A stretch of 26,323 bases of DNA, taken from a virus. Below, in pieces: positions 14,985-25,902 of this stretch (its first letter is position 1; each line of letters opens with the position of its first letter). The translations under genes were made by a program, and so were the position numbers. Where the stretch lies: the IMG/VR virus record IMGVR_UViG_3300035145_000626, positions 1 through 26,323 of that record, one strand, 5' to 3'. A model generated the notes under the pieces. The model searched no databases and was not told the DNA's origin. It saw nothing but the letters and a program-made list of their open reading frames with translations.

Positions 14985-17900
14985 CGCAGACTAAATACAT
15001 TGCAGGCGCTGGTGGCGGAGGCGGCGGCAAAGGTGGCGGTGGTGGCTCTCACACTCCTACCGAGGCTGATGACACCCTTCAGTCAGTTCAGTTTGCCAGT
15101 GTTCTTGATCTTTTAAGTGAAGGAGAAATTGCTGGCATTGAAGACCCTGGGGGTGGAACTAACTCTTGGCATAAAAGTATTTTCCTAGAAGATACCCCAG
15201 TTCAGAACGCAGACGGAACAAATAATTTCAACGGTTTTACGATTATCACTCGGAATGGCACACAAGCTCAGACCCATATTGGGGGTAATTTTGCTTCTAA
15301 TGAGTCAGAAAATGCGGTTAACGCTGAAGTAACTAACGGGAGCCCTATTACCCGGACAATAACGGACAGCAATGTAGACAAAGTGCGTGTTACGTTAGCA
15401 ATTCCATCGCTTCGCATTGTTGAAGATGACGGTGACATTATTGGTCATAGCGTAGAGATCAAAATACAAATTCAGTACAACGGTGGTGGTTTTAATGATG
15501 TGGACTTAAACGGTTCTGGCACAATTAATGGTAAAAGCAGCGCAAGGTATCAACGTGACTATATGGTTCCCCTTAGCGGCGCTTTCCCTGTCGATATTCG
15601 GATGGTGCGCGTAAGCGCTGACGAGGCAAGCTCACGCCGTTCTAGCTCAACATTTTTTCAAAGTTATACTGAAATAATTGAAGAAAAGTTTCGCTATCCA
15701 AACTCTGCGCTAGTTGCTCTGCGGTTTGACTCTCGACAGTTCAACAGCATACCGACGCGTAAGTATTTGATTCGTGGGATCAAGGTCAAGATTCCAAGCA
15801 ACGCGACAGTAGACACAACAACGCATCTAGGGCGCTTGACGTATAGCGGGGTCTGGGATGGAACCTACCAAGCTGCCACTTGGTGTTCAGATCCTGCGTT
15901 CTGCTTGCTGGACTTGCTTACCAACGAAAGGTACGGAGCAGGTGTGCCAGAAGACACGCTTGATAAATACGATTTCTTTGCGATCAGTCAGTATTGCAAT
16001 GAGCTGGTCAGCGATGGGCAAGGCGGGCAAGAGCCCCGTTTCAGCCTCAACATGCTGATCAACAACAGGGACGAGGTTTACAACGTCATCCAGCAGCTGA
16101 CTGCTATTTTCCGTGGCATTGCATATTACGGCGCGGGATCGTTGGTCTTGCTGCAAGACAAACCGTCTGATGCTCAGTATTTGCTTGGTCCGTCCAACGT
16201 GGTTGATGGGACGTTTTCATATTCAGGCACCTCGCAGAAAGCACGTCACACAGTTGCTGTGGTGGCTTGGCAGTCATACGACACCCGCGGCGATATTGAG
16301 TATGAATATGTAGAAGATCATGCTGCTGTTGCCAAGTACGGGATTATCAAAAAAGACATCAAGGCTATTGGTTGCTATAGCCAAGGCCAGGCTCACCGTC
16401 TCGGCAAGTGGGCGCTGCTTTCAGAGCAAAACCTGACTGAGACTTGTCAGTTTTCAGTTTCAATTGATAGCGGCATTGTTGTCCGTCCAGGCATGGTGGT
16501 CAACATTGCTGATCCCTTGCGTGGTGGAACGCGAAGAAGCGGGCGAGTCAGCTCAGCCACAACAACAGTCATCACGATTGATAGCGATACAGACCTGTCT
16601 GTAAGCCTTACTGCAAGCCCTACGCTTTCAGTCTTGCTGTCTACAGGCTTGGTTGAGACAAAATCTATTTCAAGCATTTCTGGCAGGGCAATCACGGTTA
16701 GCAGTGCTTTCAGCGAAGCACCAAGCGCAGGAGCCGTTTACTTGATCGAAACCACTGATATTCAGGCTCAACAGTTCCGAGTTTTATCAGTAGCAGAATC
16801 CGGCGATGGCATTTATGGCGTAAGCGCAGTTGCATATAACGAATCAATCTATGCAGCCGTTGAGTCTGACGTAGCCCTTAGGCAGCGTGACATCACCAAC
16901 CTTTCTGCAACGCCATCCGCACCAGAAAACCTAACAGGCAATGAGTTTCTATATCAAGAGGGTCAAACGGTTCATACTGGATTTGATTTAAGTTTCACGC
17001 ATGACCGCAGAAATACGAATGATTTTCAAATCAAGTACAAGATCGATAATGACAATTTCACAACGCTAATTACTAGCAGCCCTTCGATCACGTTGCGGAC
17101 ATTACGCGCTGGGACGTTGACCGTGCAAGTCTTGGCTCGTAATTACTTAGGCAGACAAAGCACAATTGCAACAGCAACTTTTACTCTCGTCGGCAAGACA
17201 GCAGTGCCTGGCGATGTTCAGAACCTGACGATTGAGCCTATTAACGCCAACAGCGCTCGTCTGCGATGGACCGAGACGGTTGATTTAGACGTAAAAGTGA
17301 ATGGCCGTGTTCACATTAAGCACAGCAACCTAACTGATGGTTCTGCAACATGGCCCAACTCTGTCAATCTAATTCCTGCTGTTGCAGGCAACTCGACTGA
17401 AGCCATTGTTCCGCTGGTTGAAGGTGAAATTTTTGCCAAGTTTGAAGATGACTTGGGCAACAGAAGTACCAACGCCGCAAGTGTTCTGGTTGATTTCCCA
17501 GACACGTTAGGGCGTTTACCTGTCCTTACACGTCGAGAAGATCAAGATACACCTCCTTTTCAAGGAACAAAGACGAATTGTTTTTACAGTAGTGATTTTG
17601 ATGCGTTGATTATTGATGGTGATGAACTTTTAGATTCAGTAACTGATTTTGACGCGATTAGCTCGTTTGACTTTATGGGCGATATCCTGACGTCAGCAGA
17701 ATATGAATTTGCAAACACTCTTGACCTAGGCGCTGCTTTCTCTCTTGATCTTGCAAGACGGTTTGTAACCAGAGCTTTCTTCCCTAACGACAACATTGAT
17801 TCGCGGACTGCAAACGTTGATACCTGGAATGACTGGGACGGCACGAATGCTGACCGTGTTAACGCAAAACTCTATATGCGCTCAACCAATGATGATCCGT

Positions 17901-20867: not shown

Positions 20868-21037
20868 TTGCCGCTAAGCCTGGTGCGGAAGACGTGCAGG
20901 CTATGGCGGCTAGAACGCTGTGGCTGGAAGAGCTGTATTTCCTTGATGGCCGCGACATGATCAGCCATCCGCAGCATGGTCTGTTCACTGGTTTGGCGGC
21001 TAAATATCAAAACCTGCAGTCAACTGACGGCTACTGA
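20864..21037 (+). CDS. Small conserved-looking protein, 57 residues
   Basis: The frame is open from 20846, but the ATG at 20864 (ATGA overlap) gives a plausible start. The sequence is compact: AEDVQAMAARTLWLEELYFL, then DGRDMISHPQHGLFTGLAAK and YQNLQ. The rich mix of aromatic, His and Gly residues in HPQHGLFTGL suggests a conserved family rather than a chance frame, and I recall similar short proteins in marine phages. No function can be given. It overlaps the next small gene by one base (TGATG). Confidence 0.6.
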   Translation: MIAAKPGAEDVQAMAARTLWLEELYFLDGRDMISHPQHGLFTGLAAKYQNLQSTDGY

Positions 21038-21162
21038 TGGCCAAGTCCCTAAGTGGCAACACTTTTGTTGTCGGTAAACCGAAACGGACCAAACAGGGAA
21101 ATGGTCAACACTCACGCCCAAAAAAAGGCCGTAAGAAGTACCGTGGCCAAGGAAAACGCTAA
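21037..21162 (+). CDS. Small highly basic protein, 41 residues
   Basis: Starts in a TGATG overlap with the 57-residue gene. Of 41 residues, 15 are Lys or Arg, grouped in PKRTKQGNGQHSRPKKGRKK followed by YRGQGKR. It has no hydrophobic core, so it is probably disordered and nucleic-acid binding. I recall near-identical short proteins (PKRTRQGxxxxSxPKKGRKxYRGQG) in cyanophage and marine phage genomes, usually without a name. Too short for routine gene finding; support comes from the overlap, the composition and that recollection. Confidence 0.65.
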   Translation: MAKSLSGNTFVVGKPKRTKQGNGQHSRPKKGRKKYRGQGKR

Positions 21163-21170
21163 TTCTTCTA

Positions 21171-21512
21171 ATGATCAAGCGTCTTGTTTTTGGTGTAGCC
21201 GCTGGCGCACTTGCCTTGGCTCCCCTCTCTGCCCGCGCAGATTGGTACATTAATCCGGAACTGAACGCCTCAGCCGGGCTTGATTCTGGAACAGGTGCCG
21301 CAAACCTCGAAACTCACATCGGGTACGACTTCGAGAACGGTGGTTACATCCAAGCGGGTCCAGCAGCTGTCCTTCCGGATAGTGGCGAAAACAAAGTTGA
21401 GTTCACTGGCAAAGCTGGTATCAGCGGCGGTCCTCTCTACGGTGAGATCTCTTTCAGCACCGGAGACGAGTTCGGCCTTGGTTTCAAAACTGGTGCCAAA
21501 TTTAGCTTCTGA
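21171..21512 (+). CDS. Exported mini outer-membrane-like beta protein
   Basis: The protein has 113 residues. A classic Sec signal (MIKRLVFGVAAGALALAPLS then ARA, with cleavage before DWY) leaves about 89 residues. These alternate in short beta hairpins with Gly/Asn turns (ETHIGYDFENGGYIQAGPAA, VEFTGKAGISGGPLYGEISF, GLGFKTGAKFSF). The last residue is Phe after an alternating AKFSF strand, which matches the C-terminal signal recognised by the Bam machinery in Gram-negative outer membranes. It is short for an eight-strand barrel. No Shine-Dalgarno is close; it follows the basic protein after 8 bases. It is the last gene before the strong terminator at 21550. Confidence 0.7.
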   Translation: MIKRLVFGVAAGALALAPLSARADWYINPELNASAGLDSGTGAANLETHIGYDFENGGYIQAGPAAVLPDSGENKVEFTGKAGISGGPLYGEISFSTGDEFGLGFKTGAKFSF

Positions 21513-21588: not shown

Positions 21589-21807
21589 ATGCAGAAAATC
21601 ATCAACGTCGTTTCTGCCTGCACCTTTGTGCTGGCTCTAGCGAACACAGCCGTGATTGTTGTGGCCGTGACGCGTGGGCCATCAATGATGAAGCTCTATC
21701 TGAGTGAAATGAAGTTGGATCTGACTCAGACGATTCTTGATCAAGTTCCCGTTCCAGAAATGCCTGAACTGCCCAAAGCAACTGGGCCTGCCATTCCTTT
21801 CAGGTGA
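21589..21807 (+). CDS. Single-span membrane protein, 72 residues
   Basis: Starts 13 bases after the terminator. Residues 4-28 are one membrane helix (IINVVSACTFVLALANTAVI and onward), then an amphipathic charged helix (KLYLSEMKLDLTQTILDQV) and a Pro-rich end (VPEMPELPKATGPAIPF). I recall cyanophage proteins ending in the same PELPxxTGPAxPF pattern, without known function. Its architecture, N-terminal anchor plus periplasmic or cytoplasmic helix, could fit an inner-membrane spanin or a holin partner but nothing proves that. It ends by overlapping the tail of a minus-strand gene by 8 bases. Confidence 0.6.
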   Translation: MQKIINVVSACTFVLALANTAVIVVAVTRGPSMMKLYLSEMKLDLTQTILDQVPVPEMPELPKATGPAIPFR

Positions 21808-22120
21808 TCATCTTGGTGTTGGCGGTTGGATCTTCATCATGCGCTTCGGGACCCCAGCTTTCCGCCTTGATCCGTTCAGCAAGGTCCGGTTCTGGCGCGG
21901 GTGCGTCTGGTTCTTGATCAAACGACGCTAACCATTCCCGCAGCGCATCTCCTGTAGGTGTTTTTGAGGGCCACTTGACCCAGCGCAGAAGGGCCTTGTG
22001 ATCGGTGAACAGCCTTGCACTATTCCCACTCATTACGCTGTAAACAACTAGCGGCCCTTCACGGTGCTTTGTCCGTTCAATAAAGAGCTGACGACCTGCT
22101 GTAAACCGTTCTGCCTTCAT
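21800..22120 (-). CDS. Protein of unknown function, minus strand
   Basis: The protein has 106 residues from the CAT at 22118-22120; the frame is open from 22168 (122 residues). The first 65 residues look folded (ERFTAGRQLFIERTKHREGP, LVVYSVMSGNSARLFTDHKA, LLRWVKWPS, PTGDALREWLASFD); the rest is acidic and Pro/Ala/Glu-rich, probably disordered. The chosen start shares a CATG with the start of the + strand gene at 22119, so the two starts overlap by two bases. I do not recognise the family. The folded part is rich in conserved-looking aromatic and basic residues. No Shine-Dalgarno is evident at any candidate start, so the exact start is uncertain. Confidence 0.55.
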   Translation of the reverse strand: MKAERFTAGRQLFIERTKHREGPLVVYSVMSGNSARLFTDHKALLRWVKWPSKTPTGDALREWLASFDQEPDAPAPEPDLAERIKAESWGPEAHDEDPTANTKMIT

Positions 22121-22886
22121 GCCTGAAATCCGTGACATCGGTGTGCGAACAATCGGCGTGCCTGACATTTCTGCAGGTCAACCAATCCCGCCACCTGTTC
22201 TACCAGTAGCGCCGCCAGTTACATCAGCAGCGTTTCCGGTTATTGATATGCCTGGCTGCGTGCGTGCCCGTATTGGCAAAGGCACTGGCGTTCAGACGTA
22301 TGAAGACGATGAGCGCGGAACGGTAACGCTGTGCGATGGAACGGTGCCAGTCTTTGAAGCACCCGACTACAGGCCACACGAGTTCACCTGGGTGCAACCA
22401 CCGAAAACGAACAGTAAAAAGCCGGAGCCAAAAGCCCCGGCTGTAGCCCCCTCTTTTGATGTGCCAGGTCCTGGTCCCGACAATCCAAGATTGCCACCAA
22501 GTAAACCTTGTCCACCTTTTGGCGCGAAAGAAATCGGATCGTTTAACAAATTAGGGACAGAGGTCTTGGCGGGTTATGAGCTGCGGGACGGCAAGTGCGT
22601 AACGCTTTGGGATCCTGTGCCTGTTGGGCAAGTCGTCAACAACTATGTGCCTGATGTCGGCCCGACAGTTTCAGTTGCGGTCACTGCCGCGTTTGCCACT
22701 ACTGCCGCCATCTTGAGCAAGCCGATTGCATCAGTGCTGCAGAAGCTTGCCAAGCCGATCACGAAGAAGGTTGTGAAGAAGCTCCTTTTGAAAAAGGCAA
22801 AACCGGTATCTTTACGGGAGCGGATCCTGGCGCAGAGAGATCGGAATCGCGCACTAATGGCTTTACGTCGGGCTGTGGGTAAGTGA
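22119..22886 (+). CDS. Pro-rich protein with C-terminal hydrophobic and basic region
   Basis: A 255-residue protein sandwiched between two minus-strand genes. Residues 14-45 are Pro/Val-rich (VPDISAGQPIPPPVLPVAPP then VTSAAFPVIDMPGCVRAR). A long Pro/Lys linker follows (PPKTNSKKPEPKAPAVAPS, PSFDVPGPGPDNPRLPPSKP). Residues 182-205 contain a VVNNYVPDVGPTVSVAVTAA segment leading to a hydrophobic stretch, and the last 50 residues are very basic (KPITKKVVKKLLLKKAKPV, LRERILAQRDRNRALMALRR). The pattern resembles virion or membrane-associated proteins of cyanophages as I remember them; the function is unknown. Its last 128 bases lie antisense to the end of the next minus-strand gene. Confidence 0.6.
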   Translation: MPEIRDIGVRTIGVPDISAGQPIPPPVLPVAPPVTSAAFPVIDMPGCVRARIGKGTGVQTYEDDERGTVTLCDGTVPVFEAPDYRPHEFTWVQPPKTNSKKPEPKAPAVAPSFDVPGPGPDNPRLPPSKPCPPFGAKEIGSFNKLGTEVLAGYELRDGKCVTLWDPVPVGQVVNNYVPDVGPTVSVAVTAAFATTAAILSKPIASVLQKLAKPITKKVVKKLLLKKAKPVSLRERILAQRDRNRALMALRRAVGK

Positions 22887-23541
22887 TGGCGTGGGTGTGA
22901 TCTTCAACAGGGATTGGCTTGAGCACTACGTCAGCACAGATTGCTTTGAAGGGGCTGTCATCGGAAAAGCCGTAGCCGTTTTTTATGGCTTCAGAGCAAG
23001 CCTTGAGTCGCCCCATCTCGTAGTTGAGGCGTTTTTCAGCAAGAGCTTGTTCATAGAGGGCGACTTGTTTGCGTGCCGCCTGTTTACACAGCTCAATCGG
23101 TTGACGATCCAGTGGGATTGAAAACGTGGCTGTGATGCCAAAGTTATGGCTGAAGTTCTGGCGATAGCCAGTTCTCATCGGCTTGTAGTAAAGGATTTTG
23201 CCAGGGTTGTCTGGAACGCCATCTGGCCCGTCTTTGCCGTTTTTGTCAGGCTTGCCCTTGTTATCGCTGGTGTCATAAATGGGCTCTTGGTAATACTCGT
23301 TATTGGGGAAGCCGTAGGAATTGACGGTTGAGACAAACGGGCTGATGTTCAGCGTGGCTGTATCGCACTGAATGCCTGAGCCGTAAAACTGGCGCATGTA
23401 TTGCCCAGGATTGATCTGGACAGCCTGATTAACGACTGAACCGCTGCTGTTGCTGACAGGTGCAGCAGTCGCGTTCATCTGTGCCGCTGCTGGCGCTCCA
23501 TACATCAAGCCAAGCAACAGAAGACTTGCCGCTGTTTTCAT
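22759..23541 (-). CDS. Exported protein with four cysteines, minus-strand cassette
   Basis: A 260-residue protein with a Sec signal (MKTAASLLLLGLMYGAPAAA, cleavage before Q21). The mature part starts NATAAPVSNSSGSVVNQAVQ, then QYMRQFYGSGIQCDTATLNI, which I recall from a family of secreted marine phage proteins. A Lys/Gly/Asp/Pro linker spans about 93-115. Residues 145-190 look helical (QPIELCKQAARKQVALYEQA). Cysteines at 59, 152, 182 and 202 could form two disulfides in the periplasm. It is the last gene of a four-gene chain, overlapping the 128-residue gene by 4 bases, and runs 128 bases into the end of the convergent + gene. No function can be assigned. Confidence 0.72.
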   Translation of the reverse strand: MKTAASLLLLGLMYGAPAAAQMNATAAPVSNSSGSVVNQAVQINPGQYMRQFYGSGIQCDTATLNISPFVSTVNSYGFPNNEYYQEPIYDTSDNKGKPDKNGKDGPDGVPDNPGKILYYKPMRTGYRQNFSHNFGITATFSIPLDRQPIELCKQAARKQVALYEQALAEKRLNYEMGRLKACSEAIKNGYGFSDDSPFKAICADVVLKPIPVEDHTHAITYPQPDVKPLVRDSDLSAPGSAPVKIPVLPFSKGASSQPSS

Positions 23542-23924
23542 TGGCTGAAGGTGCTGGTGGAATCAACGACCGCCTCAACGACTGTTTCACGGCTGATGTT
23601 GACCTTTTCGATCAAGCCAGGACCGCTAAAGGTTTCTGCGAACTGGAACGGTTGACCGGCTGTGGTCTGCTTCCAGTTACCACGGGTCTGGAACGTAATG
23701 CTGTTGGTGCTTGGCGTAGGGCTGACAATGCCGTTTACCGGCTGCACGTTTTTGCCGGAGACGGTGTACTCAAAGCCAGTGCGGTAAGACTCGGAGACAA
23801 TCGACTCTTTAACCACAGTTTTTGACTCTGTCCGGGAAGTGACCACACCAGTGGCGAAGTTAGGGACAACTGGGACGGCTACTGCTGGAGTTGGTAACAG
23901 CAGCAGAAGAATTAGCCGTTTCAC
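23538..23924 (-). CDS. Exported beta-rich protein, minus-strand cassette
   Basis: A 128-residue protein with a Sec signal (MKRLILLLLLPTPAVA, cleavage before VP). The mature 112 residues are strand-like: TGVVTSRTESKTVVKESIVS, YRTGFEYTVSGKNV, NSITFQTRGNWKQTTAGQPF, then FAETFSGPGLIEKVNISRET. It lacks cysteines. It shares ATGA overlaps with both neighbours (23538-23541 and 23921-23924), so the three exported proteins are probably made together and in related amounts. The family is not named; I recall similar short exported proteins beside each other in cyanophage genomes. Confidence 0.7.
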   Translation of the reverse strand: MKRLILLLLLPTPAVAVPVVPNFATGVVTSRTESKTVVKESIVSESYRTGFEYTVSGKNVQPVNGIVSPTPSTNSITFQTRGNWKQTTAGQPFQFAETFSGPGLIEKVNISRETVVEAVVDSTSTFSQ

Positions 23925-24415
23925 CGTGTCGTCAGCTCAGTAACAACTTGGCCGATTGCACTGGTGTTAGCTCCACCGGCTGTGACGGTAACTGCGCCAG
24001 AGGTTGAGATTGTGCCAGCCAAGGTTGATGCAGTTCCTGCAGCTGTACTGGTGATATCAGAGAAGGCGGGCACGGCTCCCACTGTTGGGGCGGATGTCGG
24101 GATTGTGTCGCCTGCCTGGAACGAGTTGCTGAAGCTGAACGCTGACCCGTTTGTGGATTGAGTCGCAGTGACGGCGGTCAAAGCGTTGACGCCATTAGTG
24201 TGAGCGCCCAGGCCGCCAATAGCGCCAGAAGTAGTGCCATCAGTGGTGTTGACCCCACTCCCGCTCACGGAATAGCTGTTGCCCTGTCTAATCGCACGAG
24301 TTGACGCCCCACCGACATCGAGCTGGAGGCTGCTGCTGATCCGGTGGGTAAGGTCAGCATGAGCGGGAAGAGCAGCTGCCAAAGTGATGCCCAATACCAA
24401 AAGTGTCCGGGTCAT
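23921..24415 (-). CDS. Exported Ser/Thr/Gly-rich protein, minus-strand cassette
   Basis: A 164-residue protein with a Sec signal (MTRTLLVLGITLAAALPAHA, cleavage before DLTH). The mature part opens with DLTHRISSSLQLDVGGAST and continues with low-complexity Ser/Thr/Gly/Ala sequence (NSYSVSGSGVNTTDGTTSGA, AFSFSNSF, TSTAAGTASTLAGTISTSG), typical of secreted beta-structured or fibrous proteins. It has no cysteine and no membrane segment after the signal. ATGA overlaps link it to the holin-like gene before it and the 128-residue gene after it. It may self-assemble, but the curli repeat pattern is absent. Function unknown. Confidence 0.7.
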   Translation of the reverse strand: MTRTLLVLGITLAAALPAHADLTHRISSSLQLDVGGASTRAIRQGNSYSVSGSGVNTTDGTTSGAIGGLGAHTNGVNALTAVTATQSTNGSAFSFSNSFQAGDTIPTSAPTVGAVPAFSDITSTAAGTASTLAGTISTSGAVTVTAGGANTSAIGQVVTELTTR

Positions 24416-24675
24416 TTGATGCCAGCTTTGGTGTCTTTGTTGTCAACAATAGTCGGCTTCTTGTTGCCATTGCCATTGGACTTACGTTCGATGCCGAACG
24501 ATGCCATCGCGCCAGTCAACAGTGACGCCACGAACGTATTGTCCATCTTCATCTGAGGAAAGATCCCCAGGTACGAAGCGGTCAGCAACGCAGCACTCCA
24601 AGCGAGCACCAACGCTTTGACGACATCCGCCATTGAGATGCCTTCTTTTTCGTGGCTCTCTGTCGGTTCTGTCAT
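24412..24675 (-). CDS. Holin-like membrane protein, first gene of minus-strand cassette
   Basis: This 87-residue protein has a short charged start (MTEPTESHEKEGIS), a membrane helix (ADVVKALVLAWSAALLTASY), a turn (LGIFPQMKMDN), a second weaker helix (TFVASLLTGAMASFGIE) and a basic, Asn/Lys-rich tail. Two helices with a charged tail and this length suit a small phage holin, and lysis-type genes lie just across on the + strand. A second start at residue 15 (ATG ending at 24633 on the minus strand) has a better Shine-Dalgarno, AAGAAGG seven bases upstream, giving 73 residues. It starts a chain of 4-base overlaps with three exported proteins. Holin is a reasonable but unproven reading; a membrane anchor or chaperone for the exported set is the alternative. 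Confidence 0.5.
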   Translation of the reverse strand: MTEPTESHEKEGISMADVVKALVLAWSAALLTASYLGIFPQMKMDNTFVASLLTGAMASFGIERKSNGNGNKKPTIVDNKDTKAGIK

Positions 24676-24699: not shown

Positions 24700-24951
24700 A
24701 TGGTTGAAGTCTGGGCTGCTGTCGCTGGAGCGTCAATAACCACTGCTGCACTAGGCGTTTCAGGCATTAGCCGTCAAACACGCCAAGGTCAGGACTCGTT
24801 GATTCGTTTGACTACTGCGGTGGACAACTTGTCGAGCCGCTTGGACATTCTCCACAACGACATTAAAACCAAAGATGTGGAGGTGTTTGCCAGGTTGAAT
24901 GAACTGGAGCGTGCAGTGGCACGGCTGGAAGGTCATACAGATAGGCACTAA
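24700..24951 (+). CDS. Membrane-anchored coiled-coil protein (XhlA/spanin-like)
   Basis: This 83-residue protein takes the ATG at 24700; upstream in-frame codons to 24652 lie inside the oppositely oriented gene. It has a membrane helix at residues 3-22 (EVWAAVAGASITTAALGVSG) and then a heptad-rich coiled coil to the end (DSLIRLTTAVDNLSSRLDIL, DVEVFARLNELERAVARLEG). This N-anchored coiled-coil plan is shared by XhlA-type lysis accessory proteins and inner-membrane spanins, and by many short marine phage proteins. Its 5' end is 24 bases from the divergent start of the holin-like gene, leaving no room for a promoter between them. Confidence 0.6.
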   Translation: MVEVWAAVAGASITTAALGVSGISRQTRQGQDSLIRLTTAVDNLSSRLDILHNDIKTKDVEVFARLNELERAVARLEGHTDRH

Positions 24952-24978: not shown

Positions 24979-25152
24979 ATGCTTTTGATTCTCAAGCCTG
25001 TGTTGATGACTATGTGGAAATCACGGGCCTTCAAAGAACTGATTGTCGCGATGTGCGAGAAGGTTGTATCGCGCACCGATAACGATTTGGATGACCTGGC
25101 TGTCAAGCACCTGCGTGACCTGCTGCTGCCTGACACAAGGATTGAAAAATAG
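24979..25152 (+). CDS. Small protein upstream of the C39 peptidase, 57 residues
   Basis: Too short for routine gene finding. It begins MLLILKPVLMTMWKSRAFKE (hydrophobic, then basic) and continues LIVAMCEKVVSRTDNDLDDL and AVKHLRDLLLPDTRIEK. The pattern SRAFKELIVAMCEKVVSRTD followed by NDLDDLAV recurs, as far as I remember, in small proteins next to lysis genes of marine phages. It is probably helical and may associate with the membrane by its N-terminus. It ends three bases before the TTG start of the peptidase gene, which suggests coupled translation. Function unknown. Confidence 0.6.
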   Translation: MLLILKPVLMTMWKSRAFKELIVAMCEKVVSRTDNDLDDLAVKHLRDLLLPDTRIEK

Positions 25153-25155
25153 ACC

Positions 25156-25902
25156 TTGTCCGGCATCATCCAAGTGACCCTGCTGGTCATCGCCATGGCA
25201 CTCGCGTTGCTGCCGTTTTTCGAGTGGTATAAGCCAGACGTGCCGCATCGCATGGCTGCCATCAAGCAGCTGGAAGAGGCGATGCCTCCTGAGTTGTTGT
25301 CAGAAGATGCTGAGTGGTTTCAGGCTTGGAAAGCTAGCGGCATCGACCAGGAGGTGTACTTGCCTCGTTATTTCCGACAACTCGATCTGCCCGGCGGTGA
25401 ACGTAAGTGCTTCACCTCGTCTGGAGCGATGGCGGCGGCTTACTTCAAAAAGATTGCCACGCAAGAGGAGTACGAACAGATAAGGAAGCGATACGGGGAC
25501 ACCACCTCTGTTTACGCTCACGTCAAAGCACTGACGAGCCTGGGCCTGCAGGTTCGCTTTGTTGACAATGCTGATGCAGAAGACGTGATGGAGGCCATCG
25601 ACGCGGGCGTCATCGTTATGGCCGGGTGGTATCACCGTGGTGACATGCTGCGCGGTGAACCGCCAATGTGCGGTAGTGAAGATTGCGGACACTGGTCTGT
25701 CATTCACGGCTACAGCGGGCGATACAGCAACGACGCGAGTTGGCTGATGAGCGATCCGCTCGGCCTGCCAGATATTGAGAGGGGCACGCACAATCCTGCT
25801 CTGTCTGGTTATCGCGTCAGCGTGCGGCAGGCTGCATTTCATCAACGTTGGCAAGTCAATGGCCCTAGGAGCGGCTGGGCCATATTTGTCGAGGCACAAT
25901 AG
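25156..25902 (+). CDS. C39-like cysteine peptidase with N-terminal membrane segment, candidate endolysin
   Basis: A 248-residue protein. Residues 3-24 are a hydrophobic anchor or signal-arrest segment (GIIQVTLLVIAMALALLPFF). Residues 65-245 match the papain-like C39 family: catalytic C85 in RKCFTSSGAMAAAYF, H179 in CGHWSVIHGY and D200 in LMSDPLG. Such peptidases in marine phages are considered wall-cutting lysins; an ABC-transporter maturation role is unlikely without a transporter. The start is TTG at 25156, because the next ATG (25195) would delete half of the anchor; no start has a strong Shine-Dalgarno. A membrane anchor plus an enzyme domain recalls signal-arrest-release endolysins. It stands after a coiled-coil membrane protein and near a holin-like gene. 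Confidence 0.75.
   Translation: MSGIIQVTLLVIAMALALLPFFEWYKPDVPHRMAAIKQLEEAMPPELLSEDAEWFQAWKASGIDQEVYLPRYFRQLDLPGGERKCFTSSGAMAAAYFKKIATQEEYEQIRKRYGDTTSVYAHVKALTSLGLQVRFVDNADAEDVMEAIDAGVIVMAGWYHRGDMLRGEPPMCGSEDCGHWSVIHGYSGRYSNDASWLMSDPLGLPDIERGTHNPALSGYRVSVRQAAFHQRWQVNGPRSGWAIFVEAQ

Follow-up and report, generated by a model that had tools for sequence, protein, structure and literature searches.

A widespread cassette of exported proteins in marine cyanophages, with a possible role in the outer-membrane step of lysis

The window analysed here is a viral contig of 26,323 bases, the plus strand of which bears lambda/HK97-type head and tail genes. Four open reading frames on the minus strand, in the order A, B, C, D, form a cassette at 22759-24675 (Table 1). 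The ORF coordinates confirm the statement of the first-pass annotation that consecutive genes overlap by exactly 4 bases; its reading of these overlaps as ATGA holds for their length, but the overlap at C is GTGA, since C starts with GTG. The 3' end of D also overlaps the converging gene E by 128 nt. Scans of the window for sigma-70 promoters and terminators gave counts at chance level. When the cassette genes were compared with relatives at 70-95% amino-acid identity, dN was about 5-20 times lower than dS, which points to strong purifying selection; since dN is far below dS and all four products fall into recognised families, the genes are real.

Table 1. Genes of the cassette and its surroundings, with positions in the window.
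Feature	Position	Strand	Description
Phage_OMP	21171-21512	plus	PF24653 / phrog_417; exported, beta-barrel-like; frequent neighbour
tm72	21589-21807	plus	One-TM protein; phrog_568 "plasmid stability"; T4-GC 414; regular companion of E
E	22119-22886	plus	255 aa; phrog_570; T4-GC 234; converges on D
D	22759-23541	minus	260 aa exported protein; phrog_848/1755; T4-GC 235
C	23538-23924	minus	128 aa exported protein, GTG start; DUF6322 / phrog_650; T4-GC 236
B	23921-24415	minus	164 aa exported protein; phrog_564; T4-GC 237
A	24412-24675	minus	87 aa, holin-like; DUF6450 / phrog_21865 (also phrog_721, phrog_2714); T4-GC 218
F	24700-24951	plus	phrog_26178; N-terminal hydrophobic segment and coiled coil; divergent from A
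Small conserved gene	24979-25152	plus	phrog_2738/402; divergent from A
C39-like peptidase	25156-25902	plus	phrog_10051 endolysin; N-terminal hydrophobic segment

Two of the cassette proteins pass the Pfam gathering cut-offs, namely A for DUF6450 (PF20048; 53.9 bits vs 25) and C for DUF6322 (PF19847; 72.9 bits vs 30.6). B scores 15.9 bits against DUF6322, under the 30.6 cut-off, and is homologous to C according to profile alignment (hhalign probability 97%, E 1e-10). DUF6322, DUF6450 and PHROG families 564, 650, 848, 1755 and 570 are family names without an assigned function; no text naming DUF6322 or DUF6450 was found in the literature, and an NCBIfam search with the cassette proteins yielded nothing useful. 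A had been described as a two-helix membrane protein: its transmembrane window at residues 21-39 is clear, but the second hydrophobic stretch is weaker. The Sec signals noted for B, C and D recur in nearly all close relatives (78 of 79 B, 73 of 81 C and 79 of 80 D proteins) and consist of a basic N-region, a hydrophobic core and an AXA-type site, with cleavage of B predicted near A20/D21. A lipobox was found in none of the 79 B, 81 C and 80 D proteins, nor in any of 52 OMP-like proteins.

Both B and C are rich in Thr, Ser and Gly, C is predicted to be rich in beta strands, and D carries four conserved cysteines. The AlphaFold2 model of C (pLDDT 81) has a small beta part lying between two long strands, each of 24-25 residues. 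In the model of D (mean pLDDT 71), which is weak at its two termini, a beta part leads into a helix of 41 residues, and conserved cysteines lie close to either end of this helix. Profile searches of solved structures found no relatives of B, C or D, and fold comparison of the C and D models in the PDB gave no reliable homologue; the weak shape matches (Z < 5), to pore toxins, the flagellar L-ring, phage lower collars and Ena fibres, are not taken as evidence of homology, nor does the missing match imply a new fold. The beta-pore-forming toxins (aerolysin, lysenin, PA) rank high for the C model, but with Z of at most 4.1 and a Foldseek E above 0.1. A ring or pore architecture of the exported proteins is possible on the basis of these models. 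In BFVD, the significant matches of the models were homologues from cyanophages or uncultured phages.

E has a Pro-rich N-terminal part with four Cys residues, a C-terminal hydrophobic segment and a basic tail; because it lacks an N-terminal signal, its N-terminal part is not certain to form a large domain in the periplasm. The library name of tm72, "plasmid stability", finds little support, as the protein has no significant Pfam match, a single transmembrane segment and constant partners among the envelope genes. Genes so named (tm72 itself, and positions 17591-17854 of locus L085) encode 70-90 residues and lie nearly always beside the cassette; ideas of mobility and pseudolysogeny that rest on this name look unfounded. 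The Phage_OMP (PF24653) gene neighbours the cassette in siphoviruses and adjoins psbA in the T7-like phages P-SSP2 and S-TIP37 (L090 25391-25750; L180 18859-19203). An ORF at 21037-21162, which separates the OMP-like gene of the window from the tail region, encodes a very basic product of 41 aa with a net charge of +14.

On the other side of the cassette, F has an i-spanin-like topology and is present in 21 of 80 window-like siphovirus loci, in some of these truncated. In those siphovirus and T7-like genomes that were examined, the small phrog_2738/402 gene lies next to the module. A C39 endolysin-type gene lies beside the cassette in the window and its relatives, and its product is probably the endolysin of the region. 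This C39-like peptidase has a strongly hydrophobic segment directly after its TTG start, absent in the S-PM2 relative; an endolysin with such a segment would be exported or held by a signal anchor.

Searches by tblastn matched D in 441 phage records, C in 409, B in 371 and A in 458, nearly all of them phages of Synechococcus or Prochlorococcus. The carriers of the module comprise siphoviruses, T4-like and T7-like phages of the marine members of these genera, and in the isolates MED4-117 and MED4-184 the layout matches that of the window. The linkage of the genes was assessed in 240 IMG/VR loci retrieved by D, which fall into three sets (window-like, siphovirus MED4-184-like and T4-type Syn9-like). 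Among contigs with room for the gene in question, C adjoins D in 220 of 220, B precedes C in 197 of 198, E converges on D in 192 of 201 and tm72 is present in 148 of 148; as the loci are related and were selected by D, these counts are a description rather than a set of independent trials. C was found in every module-bearing genome examined, the T7-like ones included. Co-occurrence of the cassette genes, set beforehand as a test of the first-pass annotation, was thus seen in hundreds of genomes and three tail types. The gene orders suggest that the module moves as a unit, as one envelope module exchanged among unrelated tailed phages with common hosts.

Among 84,980 species genomes of cells only five matches were found, all of them on cyanophage contigs as judged by gene order, which were taken for phage DNA within bins or single-cell assemblies, and a host-derived cassette (AMG) was rejected for want of cell homologues. 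Cyanophage contigs in GTDB genomes labelled Lewinella, Euryarchaeota TMED129, Formosa and Nonlabens xiamenensis (L172, L173, L174, L175), the last of these labels borne by a contig of 188 kb, are apparently contamination. B, C and D are missing from S-PM2, from Syn5 and from the examined parts of S-CREM2, so that some marine cyanophages lyse their hosts without the module; for the same reason the virion proteome of S-CREM2 speaks neither for nor against a place of these proteins in the particle. In S-CREM2 the DUF6450 gene adjoins a head-tail adaptor gene (L261 3481-3774) and a small phrog_2738-type gene lies distant from it (L261 41648-41809); genes of these two types can therefore occur without the cassette.

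The T4-like phages carry the cassette among replication genes, with no endolysin alongside. In Syn9, gp167-166-165 face gp161-164 beside regA and hsp20, and in P-HM1 the cassette lies beside hli genes. In P-RSM4, E is inverted and follows D on the strand of B, C and D, which indicates that the link between E and D is independent of their convergent overlap. The window genes A, E, D, B and tm72 match those of Syn9 (tblastn/HMM) in identity and order, and the Syn9 gene order bears the same T4-GC numbers in Syn33 and P-RSM4; record notes give 218 for A, 219 for the gp163-like gene, 234 for E, 235 for D, 236 for C, 237 for B and 414 for tm72. The earlier view that no such system had been described has to be amended: a cluster of T4-GC 218/219/234/235/237, often with T4-GC 414, was reported in 15 of 16 T4-like cyanophages and absent in S-PM2, and was called "hypothetical", its clustering being supposed functional (Sullivan et al. 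2010, PMC3037559).

The late promoter of T4-like cyanophages is close to NATAAATA (PMC2984593). The motif [N][AC]TAAATA occurs upstream of B in 61 of 70 T4-like loci, mostly at -28 to -37 (2.7 in shuffles), and upstream of A in 53 of 74 (2.4 in shuffles). At other ORF starts of the same loci its frequency is 7%, and at the starts of E, tm72, gp163 and OMP it is seen in 0-2 loci. From this placement, the genes appear to be organised as two late operons, B-C-D and A-tm72-gp163-E, the 3' ends of which meet. The suggestion that the cassette is expressed separately agrees with the strand arrangement in the window, but not with the late promoters of the T4-like phages or with the T7-like phages, in which the genes lie within the late block.

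In coliphage T7 the holin is encoded by gene 17.5, between the fibre and small terminase genes, and the spanins by 18.5/18.7, between the terminase genes 18 (TerS) and 19 (TerL). In P-SSP7, gp43, gp44 and gp45 correspond to A, C and D (DUF6450, 2e-32; phrog_650, 2e-32; phrog_1755, 3e-51), preceded directly by gp42, a short protein with a weak match to E (E 0.002), and followed by a small phrog_2738-type gene, the whole set being located between the tail fibres and the small terminase. The same slot holds A-C-D and the small gene in P-SSP2, and in S-TIP37 this set is preceded by a short E-like protein; the identities in P-SSP7 and P-SSP2 were confirmed with library profiles. In P-SCSP1q, A-C-D are on the minus strand and the phrog_2738 gene diverges from them, as in the window. 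Syn5 lacks A, C and D and keeps the small phrog_2738-type gene, and among the T7-like genomes examined only the uncultured S37-C6 has B, as part of a full set. The S-TIP37 record has no annotation over the DUF6450 gene (L180 39230-39430), where E- and A-like matches fall in overlapping frames; the E-like gene does not seem to stay in frame, so a gene may have been missed here or a frameshift may be present.

Late timing, export, a small inner-membrane protein, the holin slot of T7 and a neighbouring C39 endolysin together lead us to propose that the cassette could act on the envelope as the late half of the system by which phages of marine picocyanobacteria lyse their hosts, replacing spanins, a proposal to which we give about an even chance of being right. 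The sequences support the export signals and the lack of a lipobox, the co-occurrence in three phage types, the lysis slot and the T4-like late promoters. A fits the description of a holin, a small protein with one or more transmembrane segments and a charged tail that is encoded in a lysis cassette, by its 87 aa, its segment at 21-39 and the holin slot of its T7-like relatives, and is a candidate holin or holin partner, with the same evenly balanced confidence as the lysis reading of which it is part. In the proposed mechanism, A would reside in the inner membrane, while C and D, exported via Sec to the periplasm, would associate with the outer membrane; B would serve as a second C-like protein in the siphoviruses and T4-like phages, and the Pro-rich E would be anchored in the inner membrane through its C-terminal segment. 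Once the C39-type endolysin had cut the wall, the exported proteins and E would rupture or perforate the outer membrane, and the module would thereby substitute for the Rz/Rz1 spanins that are absent from these phages. Among the roles listed in the first-pass annotation, a lysis-related complex is the best supported, by the T7 lysis slot in T7-like and the late promoters in T4-like relatives; we infer the lysis role, the outer-membrane site, the topology of E and the physical complex alike. A more specific version, which we regard as tentative and rather doubtful, is that the exported proteins form an outer-membrane pore or ring coupled by E to the inner membrane, in a non-spanin system exchanged among three tail types.

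Late promoters would suit virion proteins as well, and B, C, D and E could be virion proteins or assembly factors (of the tail or collar, for example) that have signal-like N-termini or pass through the envelope. In siphoviruses, E and tm72 run in the same direction as the tail genes, and the C and D models weakly resemble phage lower-collar proteins in shape. We nevertheless consider this unlikely: nearly every member has a cleavable Sec signal, which does not fit easily with assembly in the cytoplasm, and one conserved set is found in sipho-, myo- and podoviruses despite their unrelated tails. Solved virion chains searched with the cassette proteins gave no match, and a comparison of solved phage chains with the C-, D- and E-like proteins of P-SCSP1q likewise found none; the nozzle of its relative, the MPP-C phage P-SCSP1u, has been solved (8i4m). 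Moreover, the cluster was still called "hypothetical" in a study that included the virion proteomes of S-SM1, Syn9 and S-PM2 (Sullivan et al. 2010, PMC3037559).

Less probable again is superinfection exclusion or surface remodelling, an option raised earlier, in which the exported proteins would block the receptors or DNA entry of competitors. Genes for exclusion, such as T4 imm and sp, are as a rule expressed early, whereas both operons here have late promoters, and this timing disfavours the option in spite of the export of the proteins, their confinement to phages of one host group and their lack of cell homologues. Strong conservation across mutually competing phages would also be unexpected, and the PADLOC profiles, which cover bacterial defence rather than phage exclusion, gave no family match at E 0.1.

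Since cyanobacterial Sec also serves the thylakoid, the exported proteins might have their site of action in the thylakoid lumen or might affect photosynthesis, which would explain their restriction to phages of marine picocyanobacteria and would fit the hli genes beside the cassette in P-HM1; the late timing, the lysis-slot position in T7-like phages, away from psbA/hli, and the absence of similarity to lumenal proteins make this very improbable. A secreted fibre or extracellular assembly built from the homologous B and C, also listed among the earlier options, could draw on their Thr/Ser/Gly-rich composition and the predicted strands of C, but it found no positive support and hardly seems credible, as the T7-like isolates carry C and D only, no fibre family was significant in structure comparison and a lytic phage would have no evident benefit from it.

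The cassette is real, widespread, conserved and partly described before, and a good case can be made from the sequences that it may supply the outer-membrane step so far missing from lysis by marine cyanophages. Marine Prochlorococcus and Synechococcus have a Gram-negative envelope and undergo lysis on an enormous scale, yet no gene for disruption of the outer membrane is known from their phages. Should the cassette fill this gap, it would offer two or three small proteins for knock-out or expression and the question would become testable; if the lysis reading is true, a function would be given to a cluster of unknown genes that is among the most widespread in ocean viruses.

Compared with the cluster of Sullivan et al. 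2010, the genes are the same; that description covered only T4-like phages and proposed mobility at most as a function. The present analysis adds their occurrence in siphoviruses and T7-like phages, the export signals, the lysis slot, the late promoters, the homology of B and C and the lysis reading. Like the T7 lysis region, the A-C-D genes of P-SSP7 and P-SSP2 occupy the stretch between fibre and small terminase, with a small membrane protein (A) in the place of the holin; unlike it, the cassette has no Rz/Rz1-type genes, and its soluble exported proteins have cleavable signals and no lipobox.

With regard to spanins, a survey listed 20 marine cyanophages among 91 spanin-less phages, including T4-like cyanophages that bear the module as well as S-PM2 and Syn5, and guessed that the hosts simply have a fragile outer membrane (Kongari et al. 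2018, PMC6139136); we found no other paper on cyanophage spanins. As the spanin-less S-PM2 and Syn5 lack C and D, the module would be a common but not the sole solution. The two-component spanins (lambda Rz/Rz1, T4 PseT.3/PseT.2) differ from the cassette, which has two or three exported proteins and neither a lipoprotein nor a group-wide coiled-coil partner with an N-terminal transmembrane segment; none of the B, C, D and OMP-like proteins shows the lipobox of an outer-membrane lipoprotein. The two systems are alike in their envelope location and in the proposed disruption of the outer membrane, and the cysteines of D and E recall those of spanins.
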